In this document: one piece after another, positions 15,490 to 35,165 of the stretch
Numbering within the stretch: position 1 is the stretch's first letter
Layout of the letters: every line of letters begins with the position of its first letter
Assembly (NCBI RefSeq): GCF_000718985.1
Contig: NZ_JODL01000005.1
Location: 62,001-126,000 of the forward strand
Direction: 5' to 3'
Source: Streptomyces megasporus
GTDB lineage: Bacteria > Actinomycetota > Actinomycetes > Streptomycetales > Streptomycetaceae
Length of the DNA stretch: 64,000 nucleotides
The notes under the pieces: generated by a model
What the model was told of the DNA's origin: nothing
The model's database searches: none
The model's input: only the letters and a program-made list of their open reading frames with translations
Program-made: the position numbers and the translations under genes

Positions 15490-15524
15490 CGCCAGCATTT
15501 CGAACGGTTGACGAAATATCGAAC
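15490..15524. promoter_or_regulatory. Two-box operator upstream of the acid-sugar operon (site A)
   Basis: A 35-bp element ending 20 bp before the dehydratase start. It contains ATTTCGAA at 15497-15504 and CGAAC at 15520-15524, exactly 15 bp apart. The sequence CGAAATATCGAAC at 15512-15524 is 12/13 identical to the reverse complement of site B at 30386-30398. The same two-box layout with the same spacing occurs at 30386-30420 and at 35131-35165. It is probably bound by the IclR regulator encoded at 34310-35089. Confidence 0.65.
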
Positions 15525-15544
15525 AGCGTGGAGGGGCAACCGCT

Positions 15545-16705
15545 GTGCGCATCACCGGAATCAGCACCCACGTCGTCGGCACCCCCTGGCGCAACCTCAC
15601 CTACGTACAAGTCCACACGGACGAGGGCCTCACCGGCGTCGGCGAGACCCGGATGCTCGGACACACCGACGCACTCGTGGGTTACCTCCGCGAGGCCGAG
15701 GCCAATCACATCGCCGGGTCCGACCCCTTCGCGGTCGAGGACCTGGTCCGCCGCATGAAGTACGGCGACTACGGGCGGGCCGGGGAGATCGTGATGTCCG
15801 GCATCGCCGTCGTGGAGATGGCCTGCTGGGACATCAAGGGCAAGGCGCTGGGCGTCCCCGTCTGGCAACTGCTCGGCGGGAGGGTCACCGAGAGGGTCAA
15901 GGCGTACGCCAACGGCTGGTACACCGTCGAACGCACCCCCGAGGCGTTCCACAAGGCGGCCCTGAAGGTCGTCGAGCGCGGCTACCGGGCCCTCAAGCTC
16001 GACCCCTTCGGCACCGGCCACTTCGAACTGGACCACGCCGAGACGCTGCGCTCGGTCGCCCTGGTGGAGGCCGTGCGGGACGCGATCGGACCGGAGTGCG
16101 AGCTGCTGCTGGAGATGCACGGCCGGTTCAGCCCGGCCACGGCCGTCCGCATCGCCCGCGAGGTGGAGCCGTTCAAGCCGAGCTGGCTGGAGGAGCCGGT
16201 GCCGCCGGAGAACCTCAAGGCGCTGGCCAAGGTCGCCGACAAGGTGGACCTGCCGATCGCCACCGGCGAGCGCATCCACGACCGGATCGAGTTCCGCGAG
16301 CTGTTCGAGTCGCAGGCCGCCGACATCATCCAGCCCGACCTCGGCCACCTCGGCGGCATCCTGGAGACCCGCAAGCTCGCCGCCACCGCCGAGACCCACT
16401 ACATGATGGTCGCGCCGCACAACGTCGGCGGCTCGGTGCTGACGGCCGCTTCCCTGCAACTGGCCGGTTGCACACCGAACTTCAAGATCCTGGAGCACTT
16501 CAACGACTTCGCGGACGCCGAGATCAAGAAGGTGGTCAAGGGCGCCCCTCAGGTCGTGGACGGCTACTTCGCCCTCCCCGAAGCCCCCGGCCTGGGAGTG
16601 GAGTTGGACACCGACGCGGCGGCGGAGTTCCCACAGCAGCAGGCCCGGTTCGACCTGTGGGCCGAGGGCTGGGAGAAGCGGGACCCGCGCGGAGCGCGGG
16701 CATGA
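15545..16705 (+). CDS. Enolase-superfamily acid-sugar dehydratase (mandelate racemase group)
   Basis: A 386-residue enolase-superfamily enzyme of the mandelate racemase group. Recognisable active-site positions are K151-x-D153 (ALKLDPFG), the metal ligand E190 with H192 (LLLEMHGR), E216/E217 (WLEEPV), E242 (TGERIHDR), D265 (QPDLGHLGG) and H292 (VAPHNVGG). The E-x-H ligand pair and the downstream His resemble D-galactonate dehydratase-type enzymes, which dehydrate aldonates to 2-keto-3-deoxy acids. The exact substrate (galactonate, arabonate, fuconate or similar) is not certain. The GTG at 15545 has GGAGGGG upstream. It is the first gene of a sugar operon running to 24168, preceded by the two-box operator. 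Confidence 0.82.
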   Translation: MRITGISTHVVGTPWRNLTYVQVHTDEGLTGVGETRMLGHTDALVGYLREAEANHIAGSDPFAVEDLVRRMKYGDYGRAGEIVMSGIAVVEMACWDIKGKALGVPVWQLLGGRVTERVKAYANGWYTVERTPEAFHKAALKVVERGYRALKLDPFGTGHFELDHAETLRSVALVEAVRDAIGPECELLLEMHGRFSPATAVRIAREVEPFKPSWLEEPVPPENLKALAKVADKVDLPIATGERIHDRIEFRELFESQAADIIQPDLGHLGGILETRKLAATAETHYMMVAPHNVGGSVLTAASLQLAGCTPNFKILEHFNDFADAEIKKVVKGAPQVVDGYFALPEAPGLGVELDTDAAAEFPQQQARFDLWAEGWEKRDPRGARA

Positions 16706-16850
16706 CACGCGGTACGCCACGGGGGCGCGGGACCACCGCGGCCGGCCGGGCGGAGAGCGGCGCCGCCCTCCGCCCGGCGGACGGAGAGCACGACGGCGCC
16801 ACGCGAACCGTACGCGCGTACGGCCCGTGCGGCGCGGGGAGGATGCAGCG

Positions 16851-17930
16851 GTGAACACACCCGTACACGACCAGGACCCGACGGCCCCGGCACCGGAGGG
16901 CGCCGTACGCCCCGCCCGCGCCGGCCGCGCCGTCGTCGTGGAACGGCCCGGCGTCCATCGGCTGGTGGAGGTGGAGCGCGCCGAGCCCGGCCCCGGCGAG
17001 GCACGGGTGGCGGTGTACGCGGCGGGGATCTGCGGCAGCGACCGCGAGGTGTACGCCGGGACGCGCGCCGAGGGCTACGTCCGCTACCCCGTGATCCCCG
17101 GTCACGAGTGGTCCGGCACGGTGGACGCGGTCGGCCCCGGCGTCGATCCGGCGCTGGTGGGCCGGAAGGTGGTGGGCGAGGGGTTCCGCGCCTGCCTGGT
17201 CTGCGACCGCTGCCGGGAGGGCGCCACCAGCCTGTGCGGCGGAGGCTACGAGGAGACCGGCTTCACCCGGCCCGGCGCCTTCGCCGACGCCCTCGTCCTG
17301 CCGGCCCGGCTGCTGCACGTCCTCGACGACCGGGCCGACCTGCGCTCCGCGGCGCTGTTGGAGCCCGCCGCCGTGGTCGCCGCGGCGGTGCTGGCGGGCG
17401 AGCCCCGCTCCGGGGAGCGCGTCGCCGTGGTCGGCGCGGGCACGCTCGGCCTGCTGGCCGTCCAGTTGCTGGCCGCCGTCTCCCCCGCCGAGCTGCTGGT
17501 GGTCGATCCCCGTGTGCAGCGCGCCGAGCAGGCGCTGTCCATGGGCGCCACCCGGGCGCTGGCCCCGTCGGACGCCGAGGGGCTGCGCGGCCGTCACGAC
17601 CTGGTGGTGGAGACCGCGGGCGCGCCCACCACCGCGCACGACGCCTGCCTGCTGGCCCGGCGCGGCGGGCGGGTGGTGCTGACCGGCCTGCCCGAGCCCG
17701 GCGCGCTGGGCATCGATCCCGTCCACCTGACCGTCGGCCAGCTCACCGTCCGGTCCGTCTTCGGCGCTCCGCCCGCCGCCTGGGCGCACGCGGTACGGGC
17801 CTTCGACACCGGGCTGCTGGCGCCCGCCGCCCTGATCACCCACGAGCTGCCGTTGGACGGTTTCGCCGAGGCCGTCGCGTTGGTCGGCAGCGGCGATCCG
17901 GGGGTCGGCAAGGTCCTGCTGCGGCCCTGA
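16851..17930 (+). CDS. Zinc-dependent medium-chain dehydrogenase
   Basis: A 359-residue MDR-family dehydrogenase. Catalytic zinc ligands are C61 in GICGSDREVYAG and H85-E86 in GHEWSG. The structural zinc cysteines are C115, C118, C121 and C129. The Rossmann motif VAVVGAGTLGLLAVQ starts near residue 194. Relatives oxidise sugars, alditols or aldonates with NAD(P)+. Between a sugar-acid dehydratase and a monosaccharide importer, a sugar 1-dehydrogenase or polyol dehydrogenase role is the simplest reading. The GTG at 16851 has GGGGAGGA upstream, 145 bp after the dehydratase gene, so the two genes are probably co-transcribed. Confidence 0.82.
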   Translation: MNTPVHDQDPTAPAPEGAVRPARAGRAVVVERPGVHRLVEVERAEPGPGEARVAVYAAGICGSDREVYAGTRAEGYVRYPVIPGHEWSGTVDAVGPGVDPALVGRKVVGEGFRACLVCDRCREGATSLCGGGYEETGFTRPGAFADALVLPARLLHVLDDRADLRSAALLEPAAVVAAAVLAGEPRSGERVAVVGAGTLGLLAVQLLAAVSPAELLVVDPRVQRAEQALSMGATRALAPSDAEGLRGRHDLVVETAGAPTTAHDACLLARRGGRVVLTGLPEPGALGIDPVHLTVGQLTVRSVFGAPPAAWAHAVRAFDTGLLAPAALITHELPLDGFAEAVALVGSGDPGVGKVLLRP

Positions 17931-18019
17931 CCGCCCCGCCCGTCCCGCGCGGGCCGCCCCCGACCCACGTCACACCCTCACTCGCCAACGACGTACGAGA
18001 CACCGAACCTGGGAGCATC

Positions 18020-18997
18020 GTGACCGACGCGTCCACTCCACTGCCCGGCTCGCCCGCCGGCCGCCGCCCCGGCGAGACCGCCCTCGCCGCCCTCGGCCAC
18101 CCCGTCCCGCCCCTGAACCCCTCCGACGCGTCCCCGCACGCCTTCCCCGACGGCGGCACCTGGCGCACCGAGATCCCCTCCGTGGAGGGGCCGGAGGCAC
18201 TGGCCACCGTGTTGAAGGAGGCCGAGACCCTCGGCGTCCCCGTCCACCGCATCAGCCAGGGCAGCGGTGTGTGGATGTTGAGCGACGCCGAGATCACCGA
18301 GATGGTCGGGGCCTGCGCCGAACACGACGTCGAGCTGTGCCTGTTCACCGGCCCGCGCGGCACCTGGGACACCGGCGCCGGGACCCGCACCCTCTCGGGC
18401 GGCGCGGGGCTGCGCGCCCGCGGCCACGACGCGCTCGCCGGGTGCGTCGAGGACGCCGTGCGCGCGACCGAACTCGGCGTGCGCTGCCTGCTGGTGGCCG
18501 ACGAGGGCGTGCTGCTGACCCTGCACCGGCTGCGGACGCGGGGCGTGCTGCCCGCCGACACCACCCTCAAGGTCTCGGCGCTCATCGGCCCGGTGAACCC
18601 CGCCTCGTACTCCGTCTACGAACGTCTGGGCGCCGACTCGATCAACATCCCCTCCGACCTGACCCTGGAGCACCTGACCGAGATCCGCCGGGTCAGCCGC
18701 GCCCCGATGGACTTCTACCTGGAGGCCCCCGACGACCTCGGCGGCTACGTGCGGATGTACGACGTCGCCGAGTTGATCCGGCGCGGCGCGCCGATCTACC
18801 TCAAGTTCGGTCTCAGCAAGGCCCCCGGCCTCTACCCCTACGGCGCGCACCTGCGCGACGTGACCCTGGACACCGCGCGCGAGCGGGTCCGCCGCGGACG
18901 TCTCGCCCTGGACCTGCTGGCCCGCCTCGGCGCCGACACCGGGATGTCCCCCCTCGGCTCCCGACTGCCCGGCCCGCTCGACCGCTTCCCCGACTGA
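18020..18997 (+). CDS. TIM-barrel-like protein of unknown function in the sugar operon
   Basis: A 325-residue cytoplasmic protein I cannot assign to an enzyme. It is rich in alternating beta/alpha segments such as [63 protein letters not shown] and [20 protein letters not shown]. This suggests a TIM barrel, faintly like the U32-peptidase-type fold. Strongly patterned charged residues ([22 protein letters not shown]) look like a conserved ligand pocket. The GTG at 18020 has GGGAG upstream. It sits between the dehydrogenase and the ChvE-type binding protein, so a step in catabolism of the imported sugar, for example acting on the 2-keto-3-deoxy acid, is a reasonable guess and no more. Confidence 0.7.
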
Positions 18998-19073: not shown

Positions 19074-20183
19074 ATGCGCACCCGCACCCGCACCGCCAGA
19101 GCCCCCCTGGCCCTCGGCGCCGCCCTCGCCCTCGCGCTCACCGCCTGCGGCCAGAGCTCCGAGGGCGGCAGCAAGGCCGGTGACGACGACCCCAAGGGCG
19201 GCACCATCGGCATCGCCATGCCCACCAAGTCCTCCGAGCGGTGGATAGCCGACGGAAAGAACATGGTGAAGGCGTTCGAGGCCAAGGGCTACAAGGCCGA
19301 TCTGCAGTACGGCGACGACAAGGTGGAGAACCAGGTCGCGCAGCTCGAGAACATGATCTCCAAGGGGCACGAGGCGCTGGTGGTCGCCGCGATCGACGGC
19401 TCCTCCCTGACCGACGTGCTCCGCCGCGCCGAGGAGGCGGGCATCCCCGTCATCGCCTACGACCGGCTCATCCGCGGCACCGGGGACGTCGACTACTACG
19501 CCACCTTCGACAACTTCAAGGTCGGCGAACTCCAGGGACGGTACATCGTCGACGCGCTGAAGCTGGAGGAGAACAAGGGGGAGAAGTTCAACCTGGAGCT
19601 GTTCGCCGGCTCGCCGGACGACAACAACACCGGCTTCTTCTTCCGCGGCGCGATGAACGTGCTGAAGCCCCACATCGACGACGGGCGGCTCGTCGTCCGC
19701 AGCGGCCAGACGGCGATGAACCAGGTCACCACCCTGCGCTGGGACGGCGGCACCGCCCAGAAGCGGATGGACGACCTGCTCAGCCGCCACTACGGCGGCG
19801 AGCGCGTGGACGCGGTGCTCTCCCCCTACGACGGCATCTCGATCGGCGTCATCTCGGCCCTGAAGAGCGCCGGTTACGGCACCGCGGCCAAGCCCTACCC
19901 CGTCGTCACCGGGCAGGACGCCGAGTTGGCCTCCGTCAAGTCGATCATCGCCGGGCAGCAGACCCAGACCGTCTTCAAGGACACCCGCGAACTCGCCCGA
20001 CGCGCCGTGGAGATGACCGACGCCGTGCTGAACGGCGACAAGCCGGAGGTCAACGACACAGAGTCCTACGACAACGGCGTCAAGACCGTCCCGGCCTACC
20101 TGCTGGAACCGGTCAGCATCGACAAGTCCAACACCGACCTGCTCGTGGACGAGGGCTACTACACCGCCGACCAGCTCGCGTAG
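19074..20183 (+). CDS. chvE: ChvE-type monosaccharide-binding lipoprotein
   Basis: A 369-residue periplasmic-type sugar-binding protein anchored as a lipoprotein. The signal peptide ends in the lipobox LTAC with Cys25. The mature fold belongs to the type 1 sugar-binding family ([61 protein letters not shown]). The YDRLI and [14 protein letters not shown] segments match the ChvE/multiple-monosaccharide subgroup, which binds arabinose, galactose, xylose, glucose or fucose. It is followed by the matching ATPase and permease genes, forming a complete CUT2 importer. The ATG at 19074 has GGAGGGAACC upstream. Confidence 0.92.
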
Positions 20184-20210: not shown

Positions 20211-21776
20211 ATGAGCAGCGTTCTGGAAATGCGCTCCATCACCAAGACCTTCCCCGGGGTCAGAGCGCTGTCCGGGGTGAACCTGACCGTCCGCAGCGGC
20301 GAGATCCACGCCGTCTGCGGCGAGAACGGCGCGGGCAAGTCGACGCTGATGAAGGTGCTCAGCGGTGTCCACCCGCACGGCGGCTACGAGGGGGAGATCC
20401 TCTTCGAGGGCGAGCCGTGCGCGTTCCGCGACATCCGGGCCAGCGAGCGGCGCGGCATCGTCATCATCCACCAGGAACTCGCCCTGGTCCCCTACCTCTC
20501 CATCGCCGAGAACATCTTCCTCGGCAACGAGCACGCCCGGCGCGGCGTCATCCGGTGGAACGAGACCGTCCGCCACGCCGCCGAGCTGATGCGCCGGGTC
20601 GGGCTCCACGAGAACCCGCAGACCCGCGTCGCCGACATCGGCGTGGGCAAGCAGCAACTGGTGGAGATCGCCAAGGCCCTGGCCAAGAGGGTCAGGCTGC
20701 TGATCCTGGACGAGCCGACCGCCGCGCTCAACGACGAGGACAGCGCCAAGCTCCTCGACCTCCTCCTGGAACTGCGGTCCCAGGGCATCGCCTGCATCCT
20801 CATCTCCCACAAGCTGGGCGAGGTCCGGCGCGTCGCCGACACCGTCACCGTCCTGCGCGACGGGCGGACGATCGAGACGCTGTCCGTCCGCCCCTCCCCG
20901 GGAGCTCCCGCGGAGGTCTCGGAGGACCGGATCATCCGCGGCATGGTGGGCCGGGACCTGGACCACCGCTTCCCCGAACGCACCCCCTACCGGGGCGAGG
21001 GAGCCGGGGCCGTCGCGCTGGAGATCTCCGGCTGGACGGTCCGCCACCCCATCGACCACCAGCGGAAGGTCGTCGACGACGTGTCGCTGACGGTGCGGCG
21101 CGGCGAGATCGTCGGCGTCGCCGGGCTGATGGGCGCGGGCCGCACCGAGTTGGCGATGAGCGTCTTCGGGCGCTCCTACGGGGTGTACGCGGGCGGGACG
21201 GTCCGGCTGAACGGCCGGGAGGTCGACACCCGCACCGTCCCCGCCGCGGTCGCCGCGGGCCTCGCGTACGTCACCGAGGACCGCAAGACCTACGGGCTGA
21301 ACCTGATCGACACCGTCAGCCGCAACATCTCGCTGGCCTCGCTGCCCGGTCTCGCCCGGGCCGGGATCGTCGACGAGCACCGGGAGCGGCGGGTCGCCGA
21401 GCGGTACCGGGCGTCGATGAACATCAAGACCCCGACCGTCTTCGAGCAGGTCGGCCGGCTCAGCGGCGGCAACCAACAGAAGGTCGTGCTCGGCAAGTGG
21501 GTGCACGCCGACCCGGAGGTGCTGATCCTCGACGAGCCCACGCGCGGCATCGACGTCGGGGCGAAGTACGAGATCTACACCGTCGTCGACCGGCTCGCCG
21601 CCCAGGGCAAGGCGGTGTTGATGATCTCCTCGGAGCTGCCGGAGCTGCTGGGGATGTGCGACCGGATCTACACCATGGCGGCCGGTCGGCTGACCGGCGA
21701 GGTGTCCCGCGAGGACGCGAGCCAGGAAGTACTGATGCGCCACATGACGATGGACAGAAGCCGAGGTCCCCGATGA
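20211..21776 (+). CDS. mmsA: Multiple-monosaccharide ABC transporter ATPase (two ABC domains)
   Basis: A 521-residue fused double ATPase of the CUT2 family. In the first half, Walker [10 protein letters not shown] is at residues 37-45, the signature region reads [13 protein letters not shown], and Walker B is [11 protein letters not shown]. The second half has a degenerate Walker A ([12 protein letters not shown]) but an intact signature [14 protein letters not shown] and Walker [14 protein letters not shown], as usual for this family. It powers import of sugars bound by the ChvE-type protein. The ATG at 20211 has GGGAG upstream, and the stop overlaps the permease start as ATGA. Confidence 0.94.
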
Positions 21777-23002
21777 AGACCGCCCCGACCAAGACCGAAG
21801 GCAGCGGCGAGCCCCGCTCGGGGGGAAGCACCGCCGGCGCCCTGCTCGTGCGCACCGTGCGCGCCAACATGCGGCAGTACGGGATGCTCGTCGCGCTGGC
21901 GCTGATCGTCGTGCTGTTCCAGATATGGACCGACGGCAACCTCCTCAAGCCCGTCAACGTGTCCAACATCGTCCAGCAGAACAGCTACATCCTCATCCTG
22001 GCCATGGGCATGATGATCGTGATCATCGCCGGCCACATCGACCTGTCCGTCGGCTCGCTGGCCGCCTTCGTCGGCGCGGCGGCGGCCGTGATGATGGTCG
22101 AGTACGACATGGCCTGGCCCCTGGCGCTGGCGTGCTCCCTGCTGATCGGCGCGTTGGCGGGCGCCTGGCAGGGCTTCTGGATCGCCTACGTGGGCATCCC
22201 CTCGTTCATCGTGACGCTCGCCGGGATGCTGCTGTTCCGCGGCGGCACCCAGATCCTGCTGGAGGGCCAGTCCCTGGCGCCCTTCCCGCGGGGCTTCCAG
22301 AACCTCAGCCAGGGCTTCCTGCCCGAGGGCGGCCCGCTCTCCGACTACCACGACCTGACGGTGCTCATCGGCGTGGTCGTGGTGGCGGTCGTGCTGGTCC
22401 AGCAGTGGCGCGACCGCCGCCGGCAGCAGGCGTACGAGCTGGAGGTGCTGCCGCTGAACCTGTTCGTCCTCAAGTGCGTGGCGATCGTGGCGGCGGTGCT
22501 GGCGTTCACCCTCACCCTGGCCAGCTACCGGGGCGTCCCGGTGGTGCTGCTCGTCATGTGCGCGATCCTGATCGGGCTGGGTTTCGTGATGCGCAACGCC
22601 GTCATCGGCCGCCACGTGTACGCGCTGGGCGGCAACAAGGCCGCGGCCAGGCTGTCGGGCGTGAAGGACGCCCGGGTCACCTTCCTGGTCTTCGTCAACA
22701 TGGGTGTGCTGGCGGCGCTGGCGGGCTGCGTGTACGCCGCCCGGCTCAACGCCGGCACCCCGCAGGCGGGCATCAACTTCGAACTGGAGGCGATCGCCGC
22801 GGCGTTCATCGGCGGCGCCTCCATGAGCGGGGGCGTGGGTACCGTGCTGGGTGCCGTCATCGGCGGTCTGGTGCTCGGCGTGCTCAACAACGGCATGTCC
22901 CTGGTGGGCATCGGTACCGACTACCAGCAGGTCATCAAGGGCCTGGTCCTGCTGGCGGCGGTGGGATTCGACGTCTGGAACAAGCGAAAGGTGGGCACGT
23001 GA
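21773..23002 (+). CDS. mmsB: Multiple-monosaccharide ABC transporter permease
   Basis: A 409-residue integral membrane permease with about ten hydrophobic segments. It has the GHIDLSVGS motif typical of the RbsC/XylH/MmsB family and the C-terminal [17 protein letters not shown] loop that contacts the ATPase. The start ATG at 21773 overlaps the ATPase stop and its own stop overlaps the GTG of the epimerase gene, so translation is coupled through the operon. The length fits the longer MmsB subgroup rather than the shorter RbsC. It completes the ChvE-MmsAB importer. Confidence 0.94.
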
Positions 23003-24168
23003 GCACCAGCAGACGCGCAGTGATCACGGCTGCCGCGGCGGCCGGGTTGACGGCCGCCGCGGCCGTGGGGCCGGGAGCGGGAGAGGCGCACGCCAAGCCC
23101 GGCGATCCGTCCCCGCCACGGCGGAAACGGTTCGGCGAGCTGGCGGACGGCACCGCGGTGGACGTCTGGACCCTGGCGTGCGGCGGCACCCGGCTGAAGG
23201 TGCTGTCCTACGGCGGTGTCGTGCAGTCCCTGGAGGTGCCCGACCGCGACGGCCGGTACGCCAACGTCTCGCTCGGCTTCTCCGACCTGGCCTCCTACGT
23301 GGAGAGGTCGCCGTACTTCGGCGCGCTCATCGGCCGTTACGGCAACCGCGTCGCCGACGGTCGCTTCACGCTCGACGGGCGGACGTACGAGCTGCCCCGC
23401 AACGACAACGGGCACAGCCTGCACGGCGGCGACCAGGGGTTCCACACCCGGGTGTGGCGGGTGGAGCCGTTCACCCGACGCGGCGAGGTCGGGCTGGTCC
23501 TGACCCGCACCAGCCCCGATGGCGAGATGGGCTACCCGGGGACGCTTCAGGTCCGGGTGGAGTACACGGTGACCCGGCAGGGCGACTTCCGGATCGACTA
23601 CGAGGCCGTCACCGACAAGCCCACCGTCGTCAACCTCACCAACCACACCTACTTCAACCTCGCCGGCGAGGGCGCCGGAAGCGTCCTGGACCACCGTCTG
23701 GAGGTGGCCGCCTCCCGCTACACCCCGGTCGGGAGGACGCTGATCCCCACCGGCGAGTTGGCGCGGGTCGCGGGCACGCCGTTCGACTTCCGCCGGGCCA
23801 AGCCGATCGGGGCGGACATCCGCGAGGCGCACGAGCAGATCCTGTTCGGTCAGGGCTACGACCACAACCTCGTGCTGGACAAGGGCATCACGGCCGAGCC
23901 GGAGCACATCGCCACCGTCACCGAGCCCGTCTCGGGCCGGGTGATGCGGATCGCCACCACCGAGCCGGGCGTGCAGTTCTACAGCGGCAACTTCCTCGAC
24001 GGCACCCTGGAGGGCACCTCGGGGCGGGTCTACCGGCAGGGCGACGGGTTCTGCCTGGAGACCCAGCACTTCCCCGACTCCCCCAACCAGCCCTCCTTCC
24101 CCACCACCGTGCTGCGTCCGGGGCAGACGTACCGGACCACGACGGTGCACTCCTTCTCCACCGAGTAG
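22999..24168 (+). CDS. galM: Exported aldose 1-epimerase
   Basis: A 389-residue galactose-mutarotase-type epimerase that interconverts alpha and beta anomers. The N-terminus is a Tat-type signal (TSRRAVITAAAAAGLTAAAA), so it acts outside the membrane. Active-site segments are ALIGRYGNRVADG, HSLHGG, NLTNHTYFNLAG (His) and the C-terminal FCLETQHFPDSPNQPSFP (Glu). The GTG at 22999 overlaps the permease stop as GTGA. Delivering the right anomer to the ChvE-type importer fits this position as the last gene of the operon. A perfect hairpin terminator follows. Confidence 0.9.
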   Translation: MSTSRRAVITAAAAAGLTAAAAVGPGAGEAHAKPGDPSPPRRKRFGELADGTAVDVWTLACGGTRLKVLSYGGVVQSLEVPDRDGRYANVSLGFSDLASYVERSPYFGALIGRYGNRVADGRFTLDGRTYELPRNDNGHSLHGGDQGFHTRVWRVEPFTRRGEVGLVLTRTSPDGEMGYPGTLQVRVEYTVTRQGDFRIDYEAVTDKPTVVNLTNHTYFNLAGEGAGSVLDHRLEVAASRYTPVGRTLIPTGELARVAGTPFDFRRAKPIGADIREAHEQILFGQGYDHNLVLDKGITAEPEHIATVTEPVSGRVMRIATTEPGVQFYSGNFLDGTLEGTSGRVYRQGDGFCLETQHFPDSPNQPSFPTTVLRPGQTYRTTTVHSFSTE

Positions 24169-24272: not shown

Positions 24273-25769
24273 TCAGGCGAGTCGGATGACGTTCCACGAC
24301 ATCGGCTCCAGGACGGTGCGCAGCGCGCCGTCCTTCAGTTCGGTGCCCTCGCCGGGGTGCGGGGCGACCCGCTCGGGGTCGTCGAGGGTGTTGCGGGCCT
24401 CGGGGTCGGCGTCGGCCAGCACGCTGTGCTCGACGACGTCCTCCAGGGCGAGCCCGCGCAGGTCCACCTCCAGGGGCAGGGCGTCGCGCTGCCCGCGGTT
24501 GACGGCGAAGACGGTGACGGCCCCGCTGTCGTCCCGCACGGCGGTGGCGTGCAGCAGCGGCACCTCGCCGTACTTCGCGGTGGTGTACGTCGGCGACTCC
24601 ACCCGGACGTCCAGCACCTGCCCGCGTCCGTACCGGGAGGCCTGGGCGAAGGGGAAGAAGGTGGTCTGCCGCCAGGCCGGGCCGCCCGGCTCGGTCATGA
24701 TCGGGGCGATCACGTTGACGAGTTGGGCCAGGCAGGCGACGGTCACCCGGTCGGCGTGGCGCAGCAGGGCGATCAGCAGGGAGCCGAAGACCACGGCGTC
24801 GGTGACGGAGTACACGTCCTCCAGCAGCCTCGGCGCCTCCTCCCAGTCGGGCGGGGTCTGGGCGTGGTGGCGCCGCTGGTACCAGACGTTCCACTCGTCG
24901 AAGGAGAGGTTGATCCGCTTGGAGGACTTCAGGCGGGCGCCGACGTGGTCGCAGGTGGCGACCACGTTCTCGATGAAGGACTCCATGTCCACGGCGGAGG
25001 CCAGGAAGGAGTCGCGGTCGCCGTCGATCTCCTCGTAGTAGGCGTGGAGGGAGATGTGGTCCACCAGGTCGTAGGCCTCGGCCAGGACGGTGGCCTCCCA
25101 GGCGGCGAAGGTGGGCATGGCCTGGCTGGAGCTGCCGCAGGCGACCAGTTCGAGGGAGTCGTCGATCTGGCGCATGGCGCGCGCGGTCTCGGCGGCGAGC
25201 CGGCCGTACTCCTCGGCGGTCTTGTGGCCGGTCTGCCAGGGGCCGTCCATCTCGTTGCCCAGGCACCACAGCCGGATGCCGTAGGGCTCCTTGTCGCCGT
25301 GCGCGGCGCGGAGGTCGGAGAGCGTGGTGCCGCCGGGGTGGTTGGCGTACTCCAGCAACTCCCTGGCCTCCTGCACGCCGCGGGTGCCGAGGTTGACGGC
25401 CAGCATGGGCTCGCCGCCGACCTTGCGCACGAAGTCCATGTACTCGGACAGGCCGAAGCGGTTGGTCTCCAGCGAGCGCCAGGCGGGGTCCAGGCGGCGG
25501 GGACGCCGGTCGACGGGGCCGACGCCGTCCTCCCAGCGGTAGCCGGAGACGAAGTTGCCGCCGGGGTAGCGGATGGCGGTCACACCCAGTTCACGGACCA
25601 GGTCCAACACGTCGGTGCGCAGGCCCTGTTCGTCGGCGGACGGATGTCCGGGCTCAAAGACGCCCGTGTAGACGCAGCGGCCGAGGTGCTCCACGAAGGA
25701 GCCGAACAGCCGAGGGTCGACCTCGCCGATGGTGAAGGCGGGGTCGAGGGTGAACCGTGCGGTGCTCAT
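24273..25769 (-). CDS. abfA: GH51 alpha-L-arabinofuranosidase, intracellular
   Basis: A 498-residue GH51 enzyme that releases terminal alpha-L-arabinofuranose from arabino-oligosaccharides. The acid/base Glu173 is in WCLGNEMDGPWQ and the nucleophile Glu292 in FDEWNVWYQ. The N-terminal IRYPGGNFVSGYRWEDGVGP stretch is characteristic of the family. There is no signal peptide, so it acts in the cytoplasm on imported oligosaccharides. The ATG at 25769 has GGAAGGAATCC upstream; the frame extends further but only through the intergenic spacer. It is the last gene of a minus-strand operon with a secreted GH43 arabinanase and an oligosaccharide ABC importer. Confidence 0.94.
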   Translation of the reverse strand: MSTARFTLDPAFTIGEVDPRLFGSFVEHLGRCVYTGVFEPGHPSADEQGLRTDVLDLVRELGVTAIRYPGGNFVSGYRWEDGVGPVDRRPRRLDPAWRSLETNRFGLSEYMDFVRKVGGEPMLAVNLGTRGVQEARELLEYANHPGGTTLSDLRAAHGDKEPYGIRLWCLGNEMDGPWQTGHKTAEEYGRLAAETARAMRQIDDSLELVACGSSSQAMPTFAAWEATVLAEAYDLVDHISLHAYYEEIDGDRDSFLASAVDMESFIENVVATCDHVGARLKSSKRINLSFDEWNVWYQRRHHAQTPPDWEEAPRLLEDVYSVTDAVVFGSLLIALLRHADRVTVACLAQLVNVIAPIMTEPGGPAWRQTTFFPFAQASRYGRGQVLDVRVESPTYTTAKYGEVPLLHATAVRDDSGAVTVFAVNRGQRDALPLEVDLRGLALEDVVEHSVLADADPEARNTLDDPERVAPHPGEGTELKDGALRTVLEPMSWNVIRLA

Positions 25770-25878
25770 GGATTCCTTCCGTCGGGGACGGTCCGGTGTC
25801 GAGTGGGAGGTGTCGGGCGGGGAGGTGCCGGGGCGGGTGGGGCCGGGTGCGTGCGGCCCCACCCTGGGTTGAAAGGTT

Positions 25879-26877
25879 TCAGTAGGCTACCGGCCAGCCG
25901 TTGTCCCAGCGCAGCAGGTTGATGCCGAGGGTGGGCGAGCCGTTGTTGGCGCCGTCGTAGTAGTGGTAGACGAGCAGGTCGCCGTCGACGTCGGCGAGGA
26001 CCGACTGGCCGCCGGGGCCGACGATCCGGCCGTGGGTCTCCAGGACGACCGTGCCCCCGTTGTTCCGCATGTCCACGCCGTTGCGGTCGCGGAAGGGCCC
26101 GGTGGGGCTGGTGGAGCGGCCGACGCGGATGCTGTAGGTGCTGTCGGTGCCGGCGCAGCAGCGGTCGAAGGACGCGAAGAGGTAGTAGTGGCCACCGCGC
26201 TTGATCAGCGTCGGTCCCTCGATGCCGTTGCCGGTGGGGTTGCGGGCGGCGACGGAGTACAAGGTGCGGTCGCCGGGGTGCTGCTTGCCGGTGGCCGGGT
26301 CGATCCGGATCGTCTTGATCCCCGACCACCAGGAGCCGAAGGTCAGCCACCACGTGCCGTCGCCGTCGCCGAAGAGGTTGGGGTCGATGGCGTTGTAGCC
26401 CGAGGACGAGGTCGTGGCGTGGACCTGACCGTGGTCGGTCCAGGTGCCCGGAAGTCCGGTGGGGCTGGTGGCCACGCCGATGGCGGAGTGGCTGGAGCCG
26501 AAGGTGGAGAGGGAGTAGTACAGCCAGTACCGGCCGTTGTGTTTGGAGATGTCGGGCGCCCAGGGGCTCTGCTCGGGCGAGTACCGACTCCACCACGAGG
26601 GCGGGGTGCGGAACGCCGGTCCGGCGTGGGTGAAGTGGATCCGGTCGGTGGAGATACGGGCCTGGGGTCCGTCGTGGGTGGAGTACAGGACGTACCGGCC
26701 GTCGTCGAGGCGGATCATCGACGGGTCGTGGACGGAGACGTCACCGGTGACCCGGCCCGGGTTCGGGTAGGCGGTCGCGCTGCCGGGCACCAGGGCCACG
26801 AGCAGGCCCAGGAGGACGGCGACCAGCACGGTCGGGGAACGGCGGACGCGAACGCGCCCGCCCGGTCGGTCGTTCAT
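25879..26877 (-). CDS. Secreted GH43 endo-1,5-alpha-L-arabinanase
   Basis: A 332-residue secreted glycosidase. The Sec signal peptide spans about residues 12-36, ending in a SATA cleavage site. The five-bladed GH43 fold shows the three catalytic acids: Asp51 (VSVHDPSMIR), Asp165 (YNAIDPNLFG) and Glu220 (GIEGPTLIKR). The PEQSPWAPDISKHNGRYWLYYS segment is typical of endo-arabinanases. It would cut arabinan outside the cell into oligosaccharides for the adjacent ABC importer. It is the third function in an operon transporter-arabinanase-arabinofuranosidase. A 238-bp spacer with a tandem repeat separates it from the transporter genes, so it may also have its own promoter. Confidence 0.92.
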   Translation of the reverse strand: MNDRPGGRVRVRRSPTVLVAVLLGLLVALVPGSATAYPNPGRVTGDVSVHDPSMIRLDDGRYVLYSTHDGPQARISTDRIHFTHAGPAFRTPPSWWSRYSPEQSPWAPDISKHNGRYWLYYSLSTFGSSHSAIGVATSPTGLPGTWTDHGQVHATTSSSGYNAIDPNLFGDGDGTWWLTFGSWWSGIKTIRIDPATGKQHPGDRTLYSVAARNPTGNGIEGPTLIKRGGHYYLFASFDRCCAGTDSTYSIRVGRSTSPTGPFRDRNGVDMRNNGGTVVLETHGRIVGPGGQSVLADVDGDLLVYHYYDGANNGSPTLGINLLRWDNGWPVAY

Positions 26878-27115: not shown

Positions 27116-28057
27116 TCACTGACCGGCCAGGCCCGTGTGGGCGACGCCGCGGACGATCTGCCGCTGGAAGAAGGCGAAGACCAGCAGCAGCGGCAGCCCG
27201 GCGATCACCAGCGAGGCCATCACCTGGGCGTAGCGGGCGCCGTAGGTGGACTGGACGTTGACCAGGCCGACCGGCAGCGTCATCGCGCCCGGGTCGGTGG
27301 TGACCAGGAACGGCCACAGGAAGTTGTTCCAGGTCTGGATGAACGTGAAGATGGCGACGGCGGCGAGGACCGGCCGCGACAGCGGTACGACGACCGTCCA
27401 GAACACCCGCCAGCGTCCCGCGCCGTCGACGAAGGCCGCCTCCTCCAGTTCGCGCGGCACCCCCTCGAAGAACTTCACCAGGATGAACACCATGGCGGGG
27501 ACGGCGACCTGGGGCAGGATCACCCCCCAGTAGGTGTCGACCAGTCCGAGGGAGACCATCTCGGCGAACAGCGGGGCGATGAGCACCTGCGGCGGCACCA
27601 TGATCCCGGCCAGCACCAGCCCGTAGAGGAACCGGCGGCCCCGGAACTCGGTGCGCGAGAAGCCGTAGGCGGCCATGGCGCAGGTCGCCACGGTCAGCGC
27701 GGTCGTCACGACCGATATGTAGGCGGAGTTGAGCATCCACCGCCCCAGATCGCCGGAGGCCCAGACCTTCCCGTACGCCTCGAAGGTGATCCGCGATCCG
27801 ACCCACTCCAGCGAGGTCCGCGTCGTCTCGTTCTCGGGCTTGAGGGAGGTGGCGACCGCCCAGGCCATCGGCAGCACCCACAGGACCACCAGGACGAGCG
27901 CGACGGCGAGCATCGCGACGCGGCCCGGGGTCCACCGCGGCCCGCGCCCGTCCTCCGCGCTCGGGGAGCCCTTCCTCGGCCCGATCTTCCTCCGCCCGGC
28001 GCTCGCCGCGTCGAGACCTCTCCCGGCGGTCGGTCCGGCCTTCACGGTCGCGCTCAC
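27116..28057 (-). CDS. Oligosaccharide ABC transporter permease (MalG type)
   Basis: A 313-residue CUT1-family permease with six hydrophobic segments and the cytoplasmic EAA loop (LEEAAFVDGAGRWRVFWTVV) that contacts the ATPase. The first 40 residues are a polar N-terminal extension. The GTG at 28057 overlaps the stop of the upstream MalF-type gene. With the MalF-type permease and lipoprotein it forms an importer lacking its own ATPase gene; in Streptomyces such CUT1 systems usually share the MsiK ATPase encoded elsewhere. From the adjacent arabinan enzymes, arabino-oligosaccharides are the likely cargo. Confidence 0.92.
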   Translation of the reverse strand: MSATVKAGPTAGRGLDAASAGRRKIGPRKGSPSAEDGRGPRWTPGRVAMLAVALVLVVLWVLPMAWAVATSLKPENETTRTSLEWVGSRITFEAYGKVWASGDLGRWMLNSAYISVVTTALTVATCAMAAYGFSRTEFRGRRFLYGLVLAGIMVPPQVLIAPLFAEMVSLGLVDTYWGVILPQVAVPAMVFILVKFFEGVPRELEEAAFVDGAGRWRVFWTVVVPLSRPVLAAVAIFTFIQTWNNFLWPFLVTTDPGAMTLPVGLVNVQSTYGARYAQVMASLVIAGLPLLLVFAFFQRQIVRGVAHTGLAGQ

Positions 28058-29019
28058 TTGGCGGCCTCCTCACGGGAACGGCGGGTCATCCGCAGGTGGA
28101 TCAGCGAGACGATCACGATCAGGGCGAAGAAGACGTAGGAGACGGCCGAGGCGTAACCGATCCGGTAGCCGGTGAAGCCCGCCTCGTAGACGTACTGGAG
28201 GATCGGACGGGTGCTCTCGTCGGGTCCGCCGCCGGTCATGATGTAGACCTGGTCGAAGATCTTCAGCGAGGCCAGGAGTTGGAGGATGACCACCACTCCG
28301 GTGGTGCGGGCGAGCATCGGCAGTGTGACGTGCCGCAGCCGGTGCCAGGCGCCGGCGCCGTCCAACTCGGCCGCCTCGTACAGGTGTCGCGGGATGGCCT
28401 GGAGCGCGGCGAGGTAGAGCAGGAAGTTGAAGCCGACCGTCCACCACACGGTGGTCAGCACGATGGAGAGCATCGCGTAGCGGGTGTCGGTGAGCCAGCC
28501 GACCTCGGGGGTGAGGCCGACGGACTTCAACAGCAGGTCGGCGAGGCCGAAGTCGGAGGGGTAGATCATCCACATCCACAGCAGGCCGACGACGCCCGAG
28601 GGCAGCAGGAAGGGCGCGAACCACGACAGCCGCCACAACCACTGGACCACCCTCAGGTGGTGGGCGAGCAGGGCCATGACCAGCCCCACGAGGACCAGGG
28701 GCGCGGTGGACAGCAGGGTGAACCAGACGGTGTTCCACAGCGAGGACCACACCGCCGGGTCCCGTAGCGCCTCGGCGTAGTTGTCCAGGCCGACGAAGTC
28801 GCTGCCGGTGCCCGCGATGTTGTCGTTGCCCAGGCTCATCTTGACGCCCAGCAGCAGCGGCCAGACGAGGAAGGCGGCGTAGAGCAGCAGGAAGGGCGCG
28901 GTGAAGACCAGGCCGTGTTCGAGCGGGCGCCGGCGCACGGTCACGGGTCGGGCCTTCTCGCCGGCGTCGGCGGTCGCCGCCGGCGGCGGGACCGGGGCGG
29001 TGGGCGCGGTCGCGGTCAT
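28054..29019 (-). CDS. Oligosaccharide ABC transporter permease (MalF type)
   Basis: A 321-residue CUT1 permease with six transmembrane helices. The EAA loop reads LYEAAELDGAGAWHRLRHVTLPML, and the MTGGGPDESTRPILQYVYEAGF segment is a hallmark of the family. The ATG at 29019 overlaps the stop of the binding-protein gene as ATGA, and its own stop overlaps the next permease start. The three transport genes are therefore tightly translationally coupled. Residues 1-33 form a Pro/Ala-rich cytoplasmic tail. No ATPase gene accompanies them. Confidence 0.93.
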   Translation of the reverse strand: MTATAPTAPVPPPAATADAGEKARPVTVRRRPLEHGLVFTAPFLLLYAAFLVWPLLLGVKMSLGNDNIAGTGSDFVGLDNYAEALRDPAVWSSLWNTVWFTLLSTAPLVLVGLVMALLAHHLRVVQWLWRLSWFAPFLLPSGVVGLLWMWMIYPSDFGLADLLLKSVGLTPEVGWLTDTRYAMLSIVLTTVWWTVGFNFLLYLAALQAIPRHLYEAAELDGAGAWHRLRHVTLPMLARTTGVVVILQLLASLKIFDQVYIMTGGGPDESTRPILQYVYEAGFTGYRIGYASAVSYVFFALIVIVSLIHLRMTRRSREEAAK

Positions 29020-30371
29020 GCCTCGTCTCCCAGTGGGTTGGGGGTGTCGAGCAGTTCCCGGAGCCGGGACGTGGCCTCCTCCAGGGCCTCCCGCGGCGTG
29101 CGGGAGCCGGTGAGCACTCCGGAGAAGACCGCGCCGAGTTCGATCCACATCGTCGAGGCGGAGCCGGCGAACCAGGCGGGCGGGTCCAGCGCCACGTCGT
29201 CGATCACCGACCGGTACTCCGACTGCGGCTCCAGGTCGAGGTAGGCCGGTTCCTCCAGGACGGGCAGGTACGCGGGGACGTGGCCGCCCTTGGCCCACTC
29301 GACGGTGTTTCTGATCACCCAGGCGACGAAGGCGTGGGCCGCCTCGTTGGTCTCGCCGCCGCGGTCGCGCTGGTGGGGGAGGACGAGGCAGTGGGAGTCG
29401 GCCTGGGCGGTCGGGCGTCCGAACAGGGCGGGCACGCGGGTCATGGAGAACGGCAGTTCCAGGTTGGCGAAGGTGCTGACCTCCCACTCGCCGTTGAGGA
29501 GGAAGGCGGTCTCCCCGCCGCCGAAGACTCCGACCGTCCCGTTGTAGTCGACCCGGCGGTGGGCCAGGCCCTCGTCGGTGAGCCGCCGCATGAAGCGCAG
29601 GACGTTCAGGGCCTTGGCCTCGTCGATGGTGATGCGGGTGGCGTCCTCGTTCAGGAGGGTGCCGCCGGTCTGGGAGTAGAAGGTGGAGAACAGCCGCCAG
29701 GGGCCGATGGTTCCGGCGCCGAGGGTCTCGACGACCAGTCCGGGCTTGCCGGTGACCTTCCCTGCCGCGCGCAGCGCGGCGACGAACTCGTCCGTGCCGC
29801 GGATCGGTTTCAGTCTGCCGTCCGGGGCGAGCAGTCCGGCTTTCGCGCAGATGTCGGTGTTGTAGTAGAGGACCATCGGGTGCGTGTCGAGCGGGACGGC
29901 GTACTGTGCCCCGTCGACCCGTCCACGCTGCCACAGGTCGGCGGGGAAGTCCCGTTCGGTGACGCCGTGTTCGGCCAGCAGGTCGAGGTCGAAGGCGTCC
30001 AGCAACCTGCCGGGCCCGAAGCCGGGCAGCCGCGCCAGGTGCAGGGCGGCGACCTCGGGGGCTCGTCCGCCGGCCCCCGCCATGCCCAGCTTGGTGTAGT
30101 ACGGGGCGCCCCACTGGAGCGTGGACGCCTCCAGGGCGATCTCGGGGTGCGCCGCGCGGTAGGCGTCCAGCATCGTCCGCATGTTCACGCCGTCTCCGCC
30201 GCCGAAGAGGTGCCAGAAGCGCACCCTGGTCCGGCCCCGGCCGACGGCCGCGGGGGCGGCGCATCCGGCGGTGCCGGCCGCTCCGGCGACCGTCAGGGCG
30301 GCCAGCCCGGCCATGCCGCCGAGCACGCGCCGCCGGCTGGGAGCGCGGCTCGACAGGGAGGTTCGGCGCAT
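29016..30371 (-). CDS. Extracellular solute-binding lipoprotein for oligosaccharides
   Basis: A 451-residue family-1 solute-binding protein. The N-terminus carries a twin-arginine pattern (SRRRVLGGMAGLAAL) and a lipobox TAGC, suggesting a Tat-exported lipoprotein. The mature part starts RVRFWHLFGGGDGVNMRTML and contains the family segments VPLDTHPMVLYYNTDI and FLLNGEWEVSTF. The ATG at 30371 has GAGGTGG upstream; an upstream extension would cross the operator and is rejected. It is the first gene of the arabinan operon, directly behind the two-box operator at 30386-30420. Confidence 0.92.
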   Translation of the reverse strand: MRRTSLSSRAPSRRRVLGGMAGLAALTVAGAAGTAGCAAPAAVGRGRTRVRFWHLFGGGDGVNMRTMLDAYRAAHPEIALEASTLQWGAPYYTKLGMAGAGGRAPEVAALHLARLPGFGPGRLLDAFDLDLLAEHGVTERDFPADLWQRGRVDGAQYAVPLDTHPMVLYYNTDICAKAGLLAPDGRLKPIRGTDEFVAALRAAGKVTGKPGLVVETLGAGTIGPWRLFSTFYSQTGGTLLNEDATRITIDEAKALNVLRFMRRLTDEGLAHRRVDYNGTVGVFGGGETAFLLNGEWEVSTFANLELPFSMTRVPALFGRPTAQADSHCLVLPHQRDRGGETNEAAHAFVAWVIRNTVEWAKGGHVPAYLPVLEEPAYLDLEPQSEYRSVIDDVALDPPAWFAGSASTMWIELGAVFSGVLTGSRTPREALEEATSRLRELLDTPNPLGDEA

Positions 30372-30385: not shown

Positions 30386-30420
30386 GTCCGATATTTCGAA
30401 TAGCGATCGGTGACTCGAAC
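30386..30420. promoter_or_regulatory. Two-box operator upstream of the arabinan operon (site B)
   Basis: A 35-bp element 14 bp before the binding-protein start, with ATTTCGAA at 30393-30400 and CGAAC at 30416-30420, 15 bp apart. It is 24/35 identical to site C in front of the IclR gene, with the same outer ends (GT-C-G and CGAAC). The position just upstream of the ribosome site suits repression. The rest of the 339-base gap up to 30710 contains only the terminator at 30529-30559. Confidence 0.7.
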
Positions 30421-30528
30421 GGGAAGGTAGGTGGAGCGACCGTCCGCGTCAATGGTTTGCGCAGAAACAGGTGTGGCAGCCGACACAGCGGACGGTCCGG
30501 GGAGCCCGCCCCGACCGGGCGCACGGAA

Positions 30529-31730: not shown

Positions 31731-31744
31731 GAGCCTCCAGAAGC

Positions 31745-31757: not shown

Positions 31758-31810
31758 ACAACCATCCCCTTCACATTTCACACTGTCAAGTAAATCGGTA
31801 GGCTGGTGCC

Positions 31811-32275: not shown

Positions 32276-32324
32276 CGCGGGGTGACCGGGAACGGCCGGT
32301 CCCGCGTCCGCTCCCCCCGGGGCT

Positions 32325-33344: not shown

Positions 33345-33407
33345 GGAGTCCGCAGAGTACGAGCGTGTGTGCGGAGAGCGAAAGGCTCCCCTTGTGAAGA
33401 TCTTGTG

Positions 33408-34274
33408 TCAACCCGCGAAAGGCGGCTGCGCCACGCCCTGTCCCGCGTCCGGCAGCACCAGGAGCGAGCCGGCCAGCGGCTCCGCGGCGGGGTCGACCCC
33501 GGTGCGGGCCGTGGTGATGTAGAGGTCCCGCAGTTCCGGCCCGCCGAAGGCGCACGCCGTCGTGTTGCCGGCCGGCACGGGGATCGTGCGGTCCAGCCGG
33601 CCGTCCGGGGTGTAGCGCCGGACCGCGCCGCCGCCCCACAGGGCGACCCACACACAGCCGTCCGCGTCCACCGTCAGTCCGTCCGGGAAGCCCGCCCCCT
33701 CCTCGATCTCGACCAGCGTCCGGCGCCCGGTCACCTCCGGGCCGGCCACGTCGAAGACGTCGACGCGGCGGGTGGGGGTGTCGATGTGGTACATCAGCCG
33801 CCCGTCCGGGCTCCAGCCCGTGCCGTTGCTGATCGTCACGTCGGCCAGGACGGTCGTCGCCGAGCCGTCCGGGGCGACGCGGACGAGCGTGCCGCCGCCG
33901 GTGTGCTCGTCGTACGCCATCGTCCCCGCCCAGAGCGCGCCGTCCGGGGCCACGGCCGCGTCGTTGCCCCGGCGGCCGGGCACGGGATCGCGGTGCAGCC
34001 AGGAGAAGGAACCGTCCTCCTCGTACCGGCCCACTCCGTCACGGAGGTTGACCACCAGGCCGCCGCCCGCGCGCGGCTTGGCCGCTCCCACGTGCTGTTC
34101 GGTGGTCAGCACCGTGCGCCGACCACGGGCCGGGTCCCAGGTGTGCACCCGCGAGGAGAGGATGTCCACCCATATCAGCCGCTCGTTCGCCGCGTCCCAG
34201 GTCGGCCCCTCGCCCAGCAGCGCGTCGTGCCGCACCGCGACCTCGAGCCTCGCCGCCCCGCCCGTTCCGGTCAT
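33408..34274 (-). CDS. SMP-30/gluconolactonase family sugar lactonase
   Basis: A 288-residue six-bladed beta-propeller lactonase. Metal ligands are all visible: Glu22 (LLGEGPTWD), Asn104 (RGNDAAVAPDG), Asn150 (ISNGTGWSPDG) and Asp198 (FPDGLTVDADG). These enzymes open sugar 1,4- or 1,5-lactones to aldonates, for instance L-arabinolactone or gluconolactone. The gene begins 35 bp after the IclR gene stop and reads in the same direction, so the two are probably one operon behind operator site C. This makes it a good candidate for the lactonase step between the dehydrogenase at 16851 and the dehydratase at 15545. Confidence 0.9.
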   Translation of the reverse strand: MTGTGGAARLEVAVRHDALLGEGPTWDAANERLIWVDILSSRVHTWDPARGRRTVLTTEQHVGAAKPRAGGGLVVNLRDGVGRYEEDGSFSWLHRDPVPGRRGNDAAVAPDGALWAGTMAYDEHTGGGTLVRVAPDGSATTVLADVTISNGTGWSPDGRLMYHIDTPTRRVDVFDVAGPEVTGRRTLVEIEEGAGFPDGLTVDADGCVWVALWGGGAVRRYTPDGRLDRTIPVPAGNTTACAFGGPELRDLYITTARTGVDPAAEPLAGSLLVLPDAGQGVAQPPFAG

Positions 34275-34309
34275 CGCCGTCCGCCCCCTTCTTCTCGCGT
34301 CCGTTCCGC

Positions 34310-35089
34310 CTACGCCGCGCCCCGGTACCCGAGCCGCGCCGACAGGTCGGCGGCGCCCTCGGCCGCCAACGCCTCCAGTTCGATGCGCCGTTCCTCACTC
34401 CAGCGGATGGTGGGCACCGAGATGCTGAGCGCCGCGACCACCCTGCCGGTGCCGTCGCGCACGGGCGCGGCGACACAGCTCACGTCCGGATTGGACTCCC
34501 GCTCCTCGACGGCGATGCCGCGCGCGCGGATCTCCGCCAGCGCCTCGCGCAGCTCGGCCGGGGAGGTGATGGAGTTCTCGGTCATCGCCCTCAGCGGCTC
34601 GTCGTCGGGACCGGGCAGACGGGCGTCCAGCTCCTCCCTCGGCAGCGAGGCCAGCAGCATCTTCCCCACCGAGGTGCAGTGCGCCGGCAGGCGCCGCCCG
34701 GCGGCGGAGACCATCCGCACCGCGTGGGTGCTGTCCACCTTGGCGATGTAGATGACGTCCGCGCCGTCCAGGATGGCCACGTGCACCGTCTCGTCGCAGG
34801 TCTCGGCGACCTTCCGGGCCACCTGCTGCCCCTCGGCGGCGAGGTCGAGCTGCTCCGCGTAGCGGCTGCCGAGCTGGTAGGTCCGCACGCCCAGGCGGTA
34901 ACGTCCGGGCTGTCCGGGCACGGGCACCAGGTACGAGCGCGCGGCGAGCGTGGTCACCAACTCGTGGACGGTGGTGCGGGGCAGGCCCAGCCTGCGGGTG
35001 ATCTCGGGCGCGGACAGGGTGCCGTCCCCGTCGAGGAAGAGTTCCAGGATGTCGAGAGCTCTGGTCACGGCCGGTACGAGACGTCCCAT
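34310..35089 (-). CDS. IclR family transcriptional regulator of the sugar regulon (inferred)
   Basis: A 259-residue IclR-type regulator. The N-terminal winged HTH reads LDILELFLDGDGTLSAPEIT then RRLGLPRTTVHELVTTLA, and the C-terminal effector domain has SVGKMLLASLPREEL, VEERESNPDVSCVAAPVRDG and VVAALSISVPTIRW. The ATG at 35089 has GGGGAGGG upstream. An inverted pair of 15-16-bp boxes sits 41 bp before the start (site C), and the same element precedes the acid-sugar and arabinan operons, so this is the most likely common regulator and is probably autoregulated. IclR proteins commonly sense keto acids or sugar-acid intermediates. Confidence 0.9.
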   Translation of the reverse strand: MGRLVPAVTRALDILELFLDGDGTLSAPEITRRLGLPRTTVHELVTTLAARSYLVPVPGQPGRYRLGVRTYQLGSRYAEQLDLAAEGQQVARKVAETCDETVHVAILDGADVIYIAKVDSTHAVRMVSAAGRRLPAHCTSVGKMLLASLPREELDARLPGPDDEPLRAMTENSITSPAELREALAEIRARGIAVEERESNPDVSCVAAPVRDGTGRVVAALSISVPTIRWSEERRIELEALAAEGAADLSARLGYRGAA

Positions 35090-35130
35090 CGCCGCCCTCC
35101 CCTTCTCCCCGGCCCCCCGGGTCTTTCACC

Positions 35131-35165
35131 GTTCGAGATTCCGAAGACTGATCGGAATGACGAAC
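35131..35165. promoter_or_regulatory. Two-box operator upstream of the IclR gene (site C)
   Basis: An imperfect inverted repeat: GTTCGAGATTCCGAA at 35131-35145 and ATCGGAATGACGAAC at 35151-35165, 5 bp apart; the arms match at 12 of 15 positions. It contains ATTCCGAA and CGAAC with the same 15-bp spacing as sites A and B. It lies 41 bp upstream of the IclR start, as expected for autoregulation. Confidence 0.7.

Follow-up and report, generated by a model that had tools for sequence, protein, structure and literature searches.

Tandem palindromes as putative IclR operators of arabinan and L-arabinose genes in Streptomyces megasporus and its relatives

A 64-kb stretch of the 5.85-Mb genome of Streptomyces megasporus (contig NZ_JODL01000005.1, positions 62,001 to 126,000; hereafter the window) contains three 35-bp elements, which we call operators A, B, and C. 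Operator A precedes an operon that encodes, in this order, a presumed sugar-acid dehydratase, a zinc-dependent dehydrogenase, a TIM-barrel protein, a ChvE-GguA-permease importer, and an aldose epimerase. Operator B precedes an operon for an ATP-binding cassette (ABC) importer, a protein of glycoside hydrolase family 43 (GH43), and the arabinofuranosidase ArfA. Operator C precedes the genes of an IclR-family regulator and an SMP-30 family protein. The three elements are probably operators of the IclR protein, which would repress its own gene together with genes for breaking down arabinan, for import, and for the oxidative catabolism of L-arabinose.

Results

Architecture of the operators

The elements were initially annotated as ATTYCGAA and CGAAC boxes located 15 bp apart. 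The corresponding pattern, ATTYCGAA-N15-CGAAC, has exact matches in the window at positions 15497, 30393, and 35138, far above chance expectation. With up to two mismatches it has four matches, the fourth being site C on the opposite strand, compared to a mean of 0.75 in shuffled sequences; four matches were reached in one of 100 shuffles. The previously noted likenesses were reproduced, as operators B and C are identical at 24 of 35 positions, and operator A (CGAAATATCGAAC) is identical to the reverse-complemented operator B (CGAAATATCGGAC) at 12 of 13. When weight matrices were built leaving one site out and scanned along the window, each left-out site ranked right behind both training sites, with scores of 22.4, 27.9, and 34.4 bits versus 5.5, 6.2, and 6.5 bits for the best other positions. 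The sites stand directly before the first genes of their units, as had been claimed, and their centers are 38 nt (A, dehydratase), 32 nt (B, importer binding protein), and 59 nt (C, iclR) from the start codons.

The initially described 19-bp offset is retained, but the description as two direct boxes was dropped after symmetry had been scored at every center over 42 distinct iclR-promoter and 56 distinct arf-promoter sites. The element is built of two tandem palindromes of about 16 bp, centered 19 bp apart, which together form one 35-bp dyad that includes the direct boxes. The ideal palindrome is GTTCGA-N4-TCGAAC, and the centre-aligned 35-mer has the form GTTCGAnATTTCGA-N7-TCGAAATnTCGAAC, from which individual sites deviate; single sites depart from GTYCRA-W4-TYGRAC in one or more boxes. 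Local symmetry maxima are located at centers 8.5 and 27.5–28, which corresponds to palindromes 19–19.5 nt apart. The whole dyad, centered at 18, pairs on average at 9.9 (iclR) and 9.25 (arf) of 14 positions, versus at most 5.6 for shifted partners. Operator C has the best dyad in the window, with 12 of 14 positions paired, and was also scored as an inverted repeat of 35131-35144 and 35152-35165. Operator B, in which the right inner box is poor, pairs at eight positions. Operator A pairs at seven, since its left outer box is degenerate, while its right-hand palindrome is intact. The symmetry agrees with the earlier idea of a tetrameric IclR protein: the product of 34310-35089 probably binds as a dimer of dimers to the two palindromes, whose spacing of approximately two helical turns would put both dimers on the same side of the helix.

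The IclR protein belongs to the IclR family, with matches to the Pfam domains HTH_IclR (52.6 bits, cut-off 22) and IclR_C (161.1 bits, cut-off 24). Its eight NCBIfam matches to named subfamilies (KdgR, BhcR, PcaR, IclR, and AllR) are all below the cut-offs.

Conservation at orthologous loci

A matrix built from the three window sites was used to scan the loci of relatives. The element is present within 200 bp upstream of iclR in 80 of 80 ortholog loci (81 sites, 44 distinct sequences), which are the best 80 of 470 relatives, share 84–93% identity, and come from 79 Streptomyces and one "Actinobacteria bacterium". An SMP-30 match accompanies iclR at 79 of these loci and is missing from one (L015). 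Where the fetched stretch also includes a match to the importer solute-binding protein (SBP) or ArfA, a further operator site was found in 61 of 62 loci. There are 64 further sites above 14 bits, including one overlapping pair in L036, and tblastn assigned 58 of them to SBP (36), ArfA (20), GH43 (1), and dehydratase (1) genes. Judged by their translations, five of the other six sites precede arfA frames, and the sixth precedes an SBP-like remnant.

Operator A, with a similarly degenerate left box, recurs before the dehydratase in 30 of 30 loci (our own and 29 others; the 30 best of 142 matches). Four of these loci have a second, better operator approximately 100–160 bp away; iclR is divergent from and adjoins the dehydratase gene in three of them (L104, L109, and L115), and is on another contig in the fourth (L095). 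In other genera of the family, the element was found at the locus from g15 and at all five loci from g7. The footprinting suggested in the initial annotation thus finds the motif retained in orthologous promoters; nor is the motif randomly frequent, the second ground on which the prediction could have failed.

Sites elsewhere in the genome and co-occurrence with iclR

A genome-wide pattern allowing up to three mismatches, from which operator A is too divergent to be detected, matches four places in the S. megasporus genome, and the reversed control pattern matches none. The four places are operators C and B and two sites beyond the window. One of these (L091) is located 21 bp before an arabinofuranosidase gene (Pfam ASD1_dom), whose product has a signal-like N-terminus and which we take to belong to GH51. 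The other (L093) precedes a GH62 arabinofuranosidase gene broken over two reading frames (1797-2646). The matrix scan, which had been proposed with the initial annotation, singles out the annotated sites in the window, and the pattern search adds two more. A simple regulon of three sites was rejected on this basis. The proposed tie of IclR to two sugar operons is upheld by footprinting and co-occurrence, but the regulon also takes in arabinofuranosidase and arabinanase genes at other places in the genome.

We scanned 199 Streptomyces genomes with a strict pattern allowing one mismatch, which matches 130 of them; an IclR ortholog is encoded in 136. Both are present in 128 genomes, IclR only in eight, the operator only in two, and neither in 61 (Fisher p about 1e-39, with kinship ignored here and in the other counts from this set). 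The reversed control gave single matches in two genomes. In seven of the eight genomes with IclR only, a weaker element with two or three mismatches lies no more than about 105 bp upstream of iclR. Dehydratase orthologs of at least 83% identity follow the same distribution: 130 genomes contain both the dehydratase and IclR, six IclR only, one the dehydratase only, and 62 neither. ArfA (57–100% identity) is encoded in 107 of 136 IclR-bearing genomes versus 5 of 63 without IclR. We also hand-picked 20 Streptomyces sites remote from both iclR and the importer; of the 17 downstream proteins scanned for these sites, 16 have arabinofuranosidase (ASD1, ArabFuran-catal, AbfB), GH43, or GH62 domains.

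The probability that the elements are a chance similarity of CG-rich words is vanishingly small. Their boxes comprise few bases in a window of 72% G+C; however, the elements are conserved, matches found by pattern alone are functionally coherent, and no background occurrence was found at up to three mismatches in 3.1 Mb, both strands counted. Chance was rejected on the matrix scores, the genome pattern with its reversed control, this background, and the pattern across the 199 genomes.

It is very improbable that a different regulator recognizing CGAA/TTCG words binds the elements and that IclR is merely one of its targets. A BxlR-type protein could be such a regulator, as PMC12772271 reports for Streptomyces sp. 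SirexAA-E that the motif CGAANNTTTCG goes with a LacI-like regulator of xylan use, and places similar words before Streptomyces hemicellulase genes. That regulator is LacI-like, has xylan targets, and recognizes a shorter motif. The element studied here, however, tracks iclR in the 199 genomes, directly precedes iclR in every ortholog locus scanned, and has the tandem palindrome spacing that the main text of PMC8222616 reports for IclR proteins.

Promoter geometry and mode of action

A TTGAC-type promoter is located just upstream of the operators at a nearly fixed distance. At all 30 dehydratase loci, the TTGAC box begins 32 bp (once 33 bp) ahead of the operator. At arf-type sites (n = 62), a TTG[ACG]C box begins 31–33 bp ahead (60 counts), and at the 81 iclR sites mostly 30–32 bp ahead (70 counts). 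By eye, four of the five S. megasporus sites (A, B, C, and that of the GH51-type gene) have a −10-like hexamer whose end lies 2–3 bp ahead of the operator; for the broken GH62 gene, the hexamer is unclear. Correcting the initial annotation, the element should be positioned directly past the −10 box, likely covering the transcription start site. It would span approximately −3 to +32, where a blocking repressor should act. Given this near-fixed geometry, a bound tetramer should block transcription, and IclR bound 2–3 bp past the −10 box should prevent open-complex formation or promoter escape. IclR-family members can activate or repress, and IclR might act here as an activator or in both roles; we consider this distinctly unlikely, because the operator position at the four sites, with similar TTGAC distances in most relatives, is typical of repression.

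We hypothesize that the system responds to arabinan, arabinoxylan, or L-arabinose. The ligand of the IclR_C domain would be L-arabinose itself or a compound formed early in its oxidation (lactone, L-arabonate, or 2-keto-3-deoxy acid), and its binding would release IclR from the DNA. Expression would then be turned on for iclR, for the arabinofuranosidases that have signal-like N-termini, for both importers (the one for oligosaccharides along with ArfA and GH43, and the ChvE-type one for monosaccharides), and for the dehydrogenase-lactonase-dehydratase route.

A putative oxidative L-arabinose route

Oxidative pentose routes begin with three steps, catalyzed by a dehydrogenase, a lactonase, and a dehydratase. 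Zinc-dependent dehydrogenase, SMP-30, and enolase-type genes that could provide these activities are located behind operators A and C. L-arabinose isomerase (AraA) was not found in the S. megasporus genome by a search that was positive in 5 of 14 control genomes. AraA is absent from 121 of 136 IclR-bearing genomes, and the oxidative route is therefore likely the arabinose route in most of them. It is also absent from 117 of 131 dehydratase-bearing genomes.

The co-regulated arabinofuranosidases suggest L-arabinose as the substrate of the route, with galactonate as a possible alternative. In the latter case, the regulon would be as described, but with a ChvE/dehydratase branch that processes galactose or galactonate released from arabinogalactan and with a derivative of either compound as the inducer. 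The dehydratase scores best against galactonate dehydratase models, all below their cut-offs, and ChvE is a binder of multiple monosaccharides. Nevertheless, a signal of this kind is unlikely, as nearly all further targets are arabinofuranosidases, arabino-oligosaccharide importers, or GH43/GH62 proteins, with one ThuA among the 17 scanned proteins, and as dehydratase-bearing genomes mostly lack AraA.

Returning to L-arabinose as the substrate, the conserved TIM-barrel protein encoded at 18020-18997 is a candidate for the missing keto-deoxy-sugar-acid aldolase. It has no Pfam or NCBIfam match, as scanned inside a longer frame, and no sequence match in the PDB. The predicted model is a barrel-type α/β fold (predicted local distance difference test score 81), for which a structure search gave aldolase-type barrels as the nearest but generic matches, mostly with template modeling scores of 0.4–0.6. 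Relatives of the protein are sometimes named Peptidase U32, and one carries that Pfam domain. A wider proposal, which we regard as doubtful, is that IclR is the master regulator of α-L-arabinofuranoside breakdown across Streptomyces and relatives, that its signal is an intermediate in the oxidative breakdown of L-arabinose without an isomerase, and that the last cleavage is performed by this protein as a member of a new TIM-barrel aldolase family.

Discussion

Several observations weigh against the proposed regulon and its route. The element has extra local symmetry at center 24, nearly equal to that at the dimer centers and present in both iclR and arf sites. One genome has IclR with no element found beside it in the three-mismatch search (G115), one has three good sites and no IclR relative above 39% identity (G101; 1420 contigs, 95% complete), and one has a single weak operator match and no IclR ortholog (G003). 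At three mismatches the control pattern also matches, and the weaker elements depend on their position. Shared descent is disregarded in the 199-genome counts, in which the operators per genome include iclR's own site. At one of the scanned sites (L166), the downstream gene, 260 bp away, is of the ThuA family, and several of the 20 hand-picked sites have a divergent gene opposite, where the side with the TTGAC box was chosen. The importer at locus L010 has no site; its SBP match begins at residue 40, and its promoter region seems to be missing. Outside Streptomyces, the sequence upstream of iclR contains no convincing site at two loci of genus g2 (L202 and L203) and just a weak match, 38 bp from the gene, at the g4 locus (G201). 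Regarding the route, AraA is present in 15 IclR-bearing genomes. The last steps of the route, by an aldolase or by a second dehydratase plus a semialdehyde dehydrogenase, have no assigned gene; within the operon, the part of the genome considered for these enzymes, only the TIM-barrel protein is on offer.

The kind of operator is already known, and the architecture class is in print. The main text of PMC8222616 lists NGTYCRAW4TYGRACN (subgroup NGT-12-ACN) among the IclR group-1 motifs, which the idealised half-operator GTTCGATATTTCGAAC matches, and describes tandem palindromes 18–22 nt apart in 94 ortholog groups, a range that includes the spacing observed here. All three window sites fall within the preferred zone given there, mostly 20–80 nt before the start codon, and sugar and sugar-acid genes are frequent in the regulons of that subgroup. 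Arabinan, arabinose, gluconolactonase, galactonate, and dehydratase are not mentioned in that main text; its supplementary regulon tables, not covered here, may list the ortholog group. No description of an IclR arabinan or arabinose regulon in Streptomyces was found among the open-licence papers listed, supplements and RegPrecise not covered, in line with the initial annotation, which knew of none; this regulon may have been predicted before in the supplements of PMC8222616 or in RegPrecise.

KdgR, an IclR-family regulator of pectin and oligogalacturonate use according to a table in PMC8222616, is among the best NCBIfam matches of the window IclR protein, which, however, scores 167 against a cut-off of 275. 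KdgR also differs in its motif, RWWGAAACGNCGTTTCAKKA, and in its regulon, which concerns pectin and not arabinan.

AraR-type arabinose regulators belong to other regulator families than IclR. The proposed role of the window IclR protein is similar to theirs, as AraR-type regulators, for example those of bifidobacteria (PMC5928203), control the use of arabinose and arabino-oligosaccharides.

In soil, Streptomyces are major decomposers of plant cell walls, and the debranching of arabinan and arabinoxylan is part of this activity. A predicted regulator with a recognizable operator enables genome-by-genome prediction of the arabinofuranosidases and arabinanases that belong to one program. The operator and promoter pair could serve as an inducible promoter part whose geometry is known, and both the oxidative L-arabinose route and the unassigned enzyme family become directly testable.

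Features of the window

The coordinates of the operators, promoters, and genes are listed in Table 1. The closest solved relatives of the SMP-30 family protein are of the SMP-30/regucalcin type.

Table 1 Operators, promoters, and genes in the window.
Feature	Coordinates	Strand	Remarks
Operator A	15490..15524	+	Before enolase-superfamily dehydratase; matrix scan, form found in dehydratase loci
Operator B	30386..30420	-	Before arabino-oligosaccharide importer/hydrolase operon; matrix scan, relatives' loci
Operator C	35131..35165	-	Before iclR (putative autoregulation); best dyad
Weak operator-like remnant	17979..18013	+	Inside operon A, preceding TIM-barrel gene
Promoter A	15458..15487	+	TTGACG - 18 bp - TACATT; 2 bp upstream of operator A; hexamers by eye
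Promoter B	30424..30452	-	TTGACG - 17 bp - TACCTT; 3 bp upstream of operator B; hexamers by eye
Promoter C	35168..35197	-	TTGCCG - 18 bp - TAGCCT; 2 bp upstream of operator C; hexamers by eye
Presumed sugar-acid dehydratase, enolase superfamily	15545..16705	+	Family-library matches
Zinc-dependent alcohol/sugar dehydrogenase	16827..17930	+	Family-library matches; start codon uncertain
TIM-barrel protein of unknown function, candidate aldolase	18020..18997	+	Predicted fold, structure search
ChvE multiple-monosaccharide binding protein	19074..20183	+	Above NCBIfam cut-off
GguA ATP-binding protein	20211..21776	+	Above NCBIfam cut-off
Presumed sugar permease, GguB position	21773..23002	+	Presumed from open frame
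Aldose 1-epimerase	22999..24168	+	Family-library matches; signal-like N-terminus by eye
ArfA α-L-arabinofuranosidase	24273..25862	-	Above NCBIfam cut-off, 753 bits
GH43 protein	25879..26877	-	Closest to endo-arabinanase AbnA, below that model's cut-off
Importer permease	27116..28057	-	Family-library matches
Importer permease	28054..29000	-	Family match; start approximate
SBP of sugar ABC importer	29016..30371	-	Family-library match
SMP-30/gluconolactonase family protein, presumed sugar-acid lactonase	33408..34274	-	Pfam SGL, E 1.9e-84; one unit with iclR
IclR-family regulator, 259 aa	34310..35089	-	Pfam HTH_IclR and IclR_C

At L202, the TIM-barrel gene is located just upstream of iclR (around 811-1254), with no operator found before iclR. 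The operator-like element inside operon A has higher-scoring counterparts at the matching place before the TIM-barrel gene in several relatives, for example at L101 3769 and L112 398. A second ArfA homolog, 66% identical, is encoded elsewhere in the S. megasporus genome (G000:C39:5126-6691).

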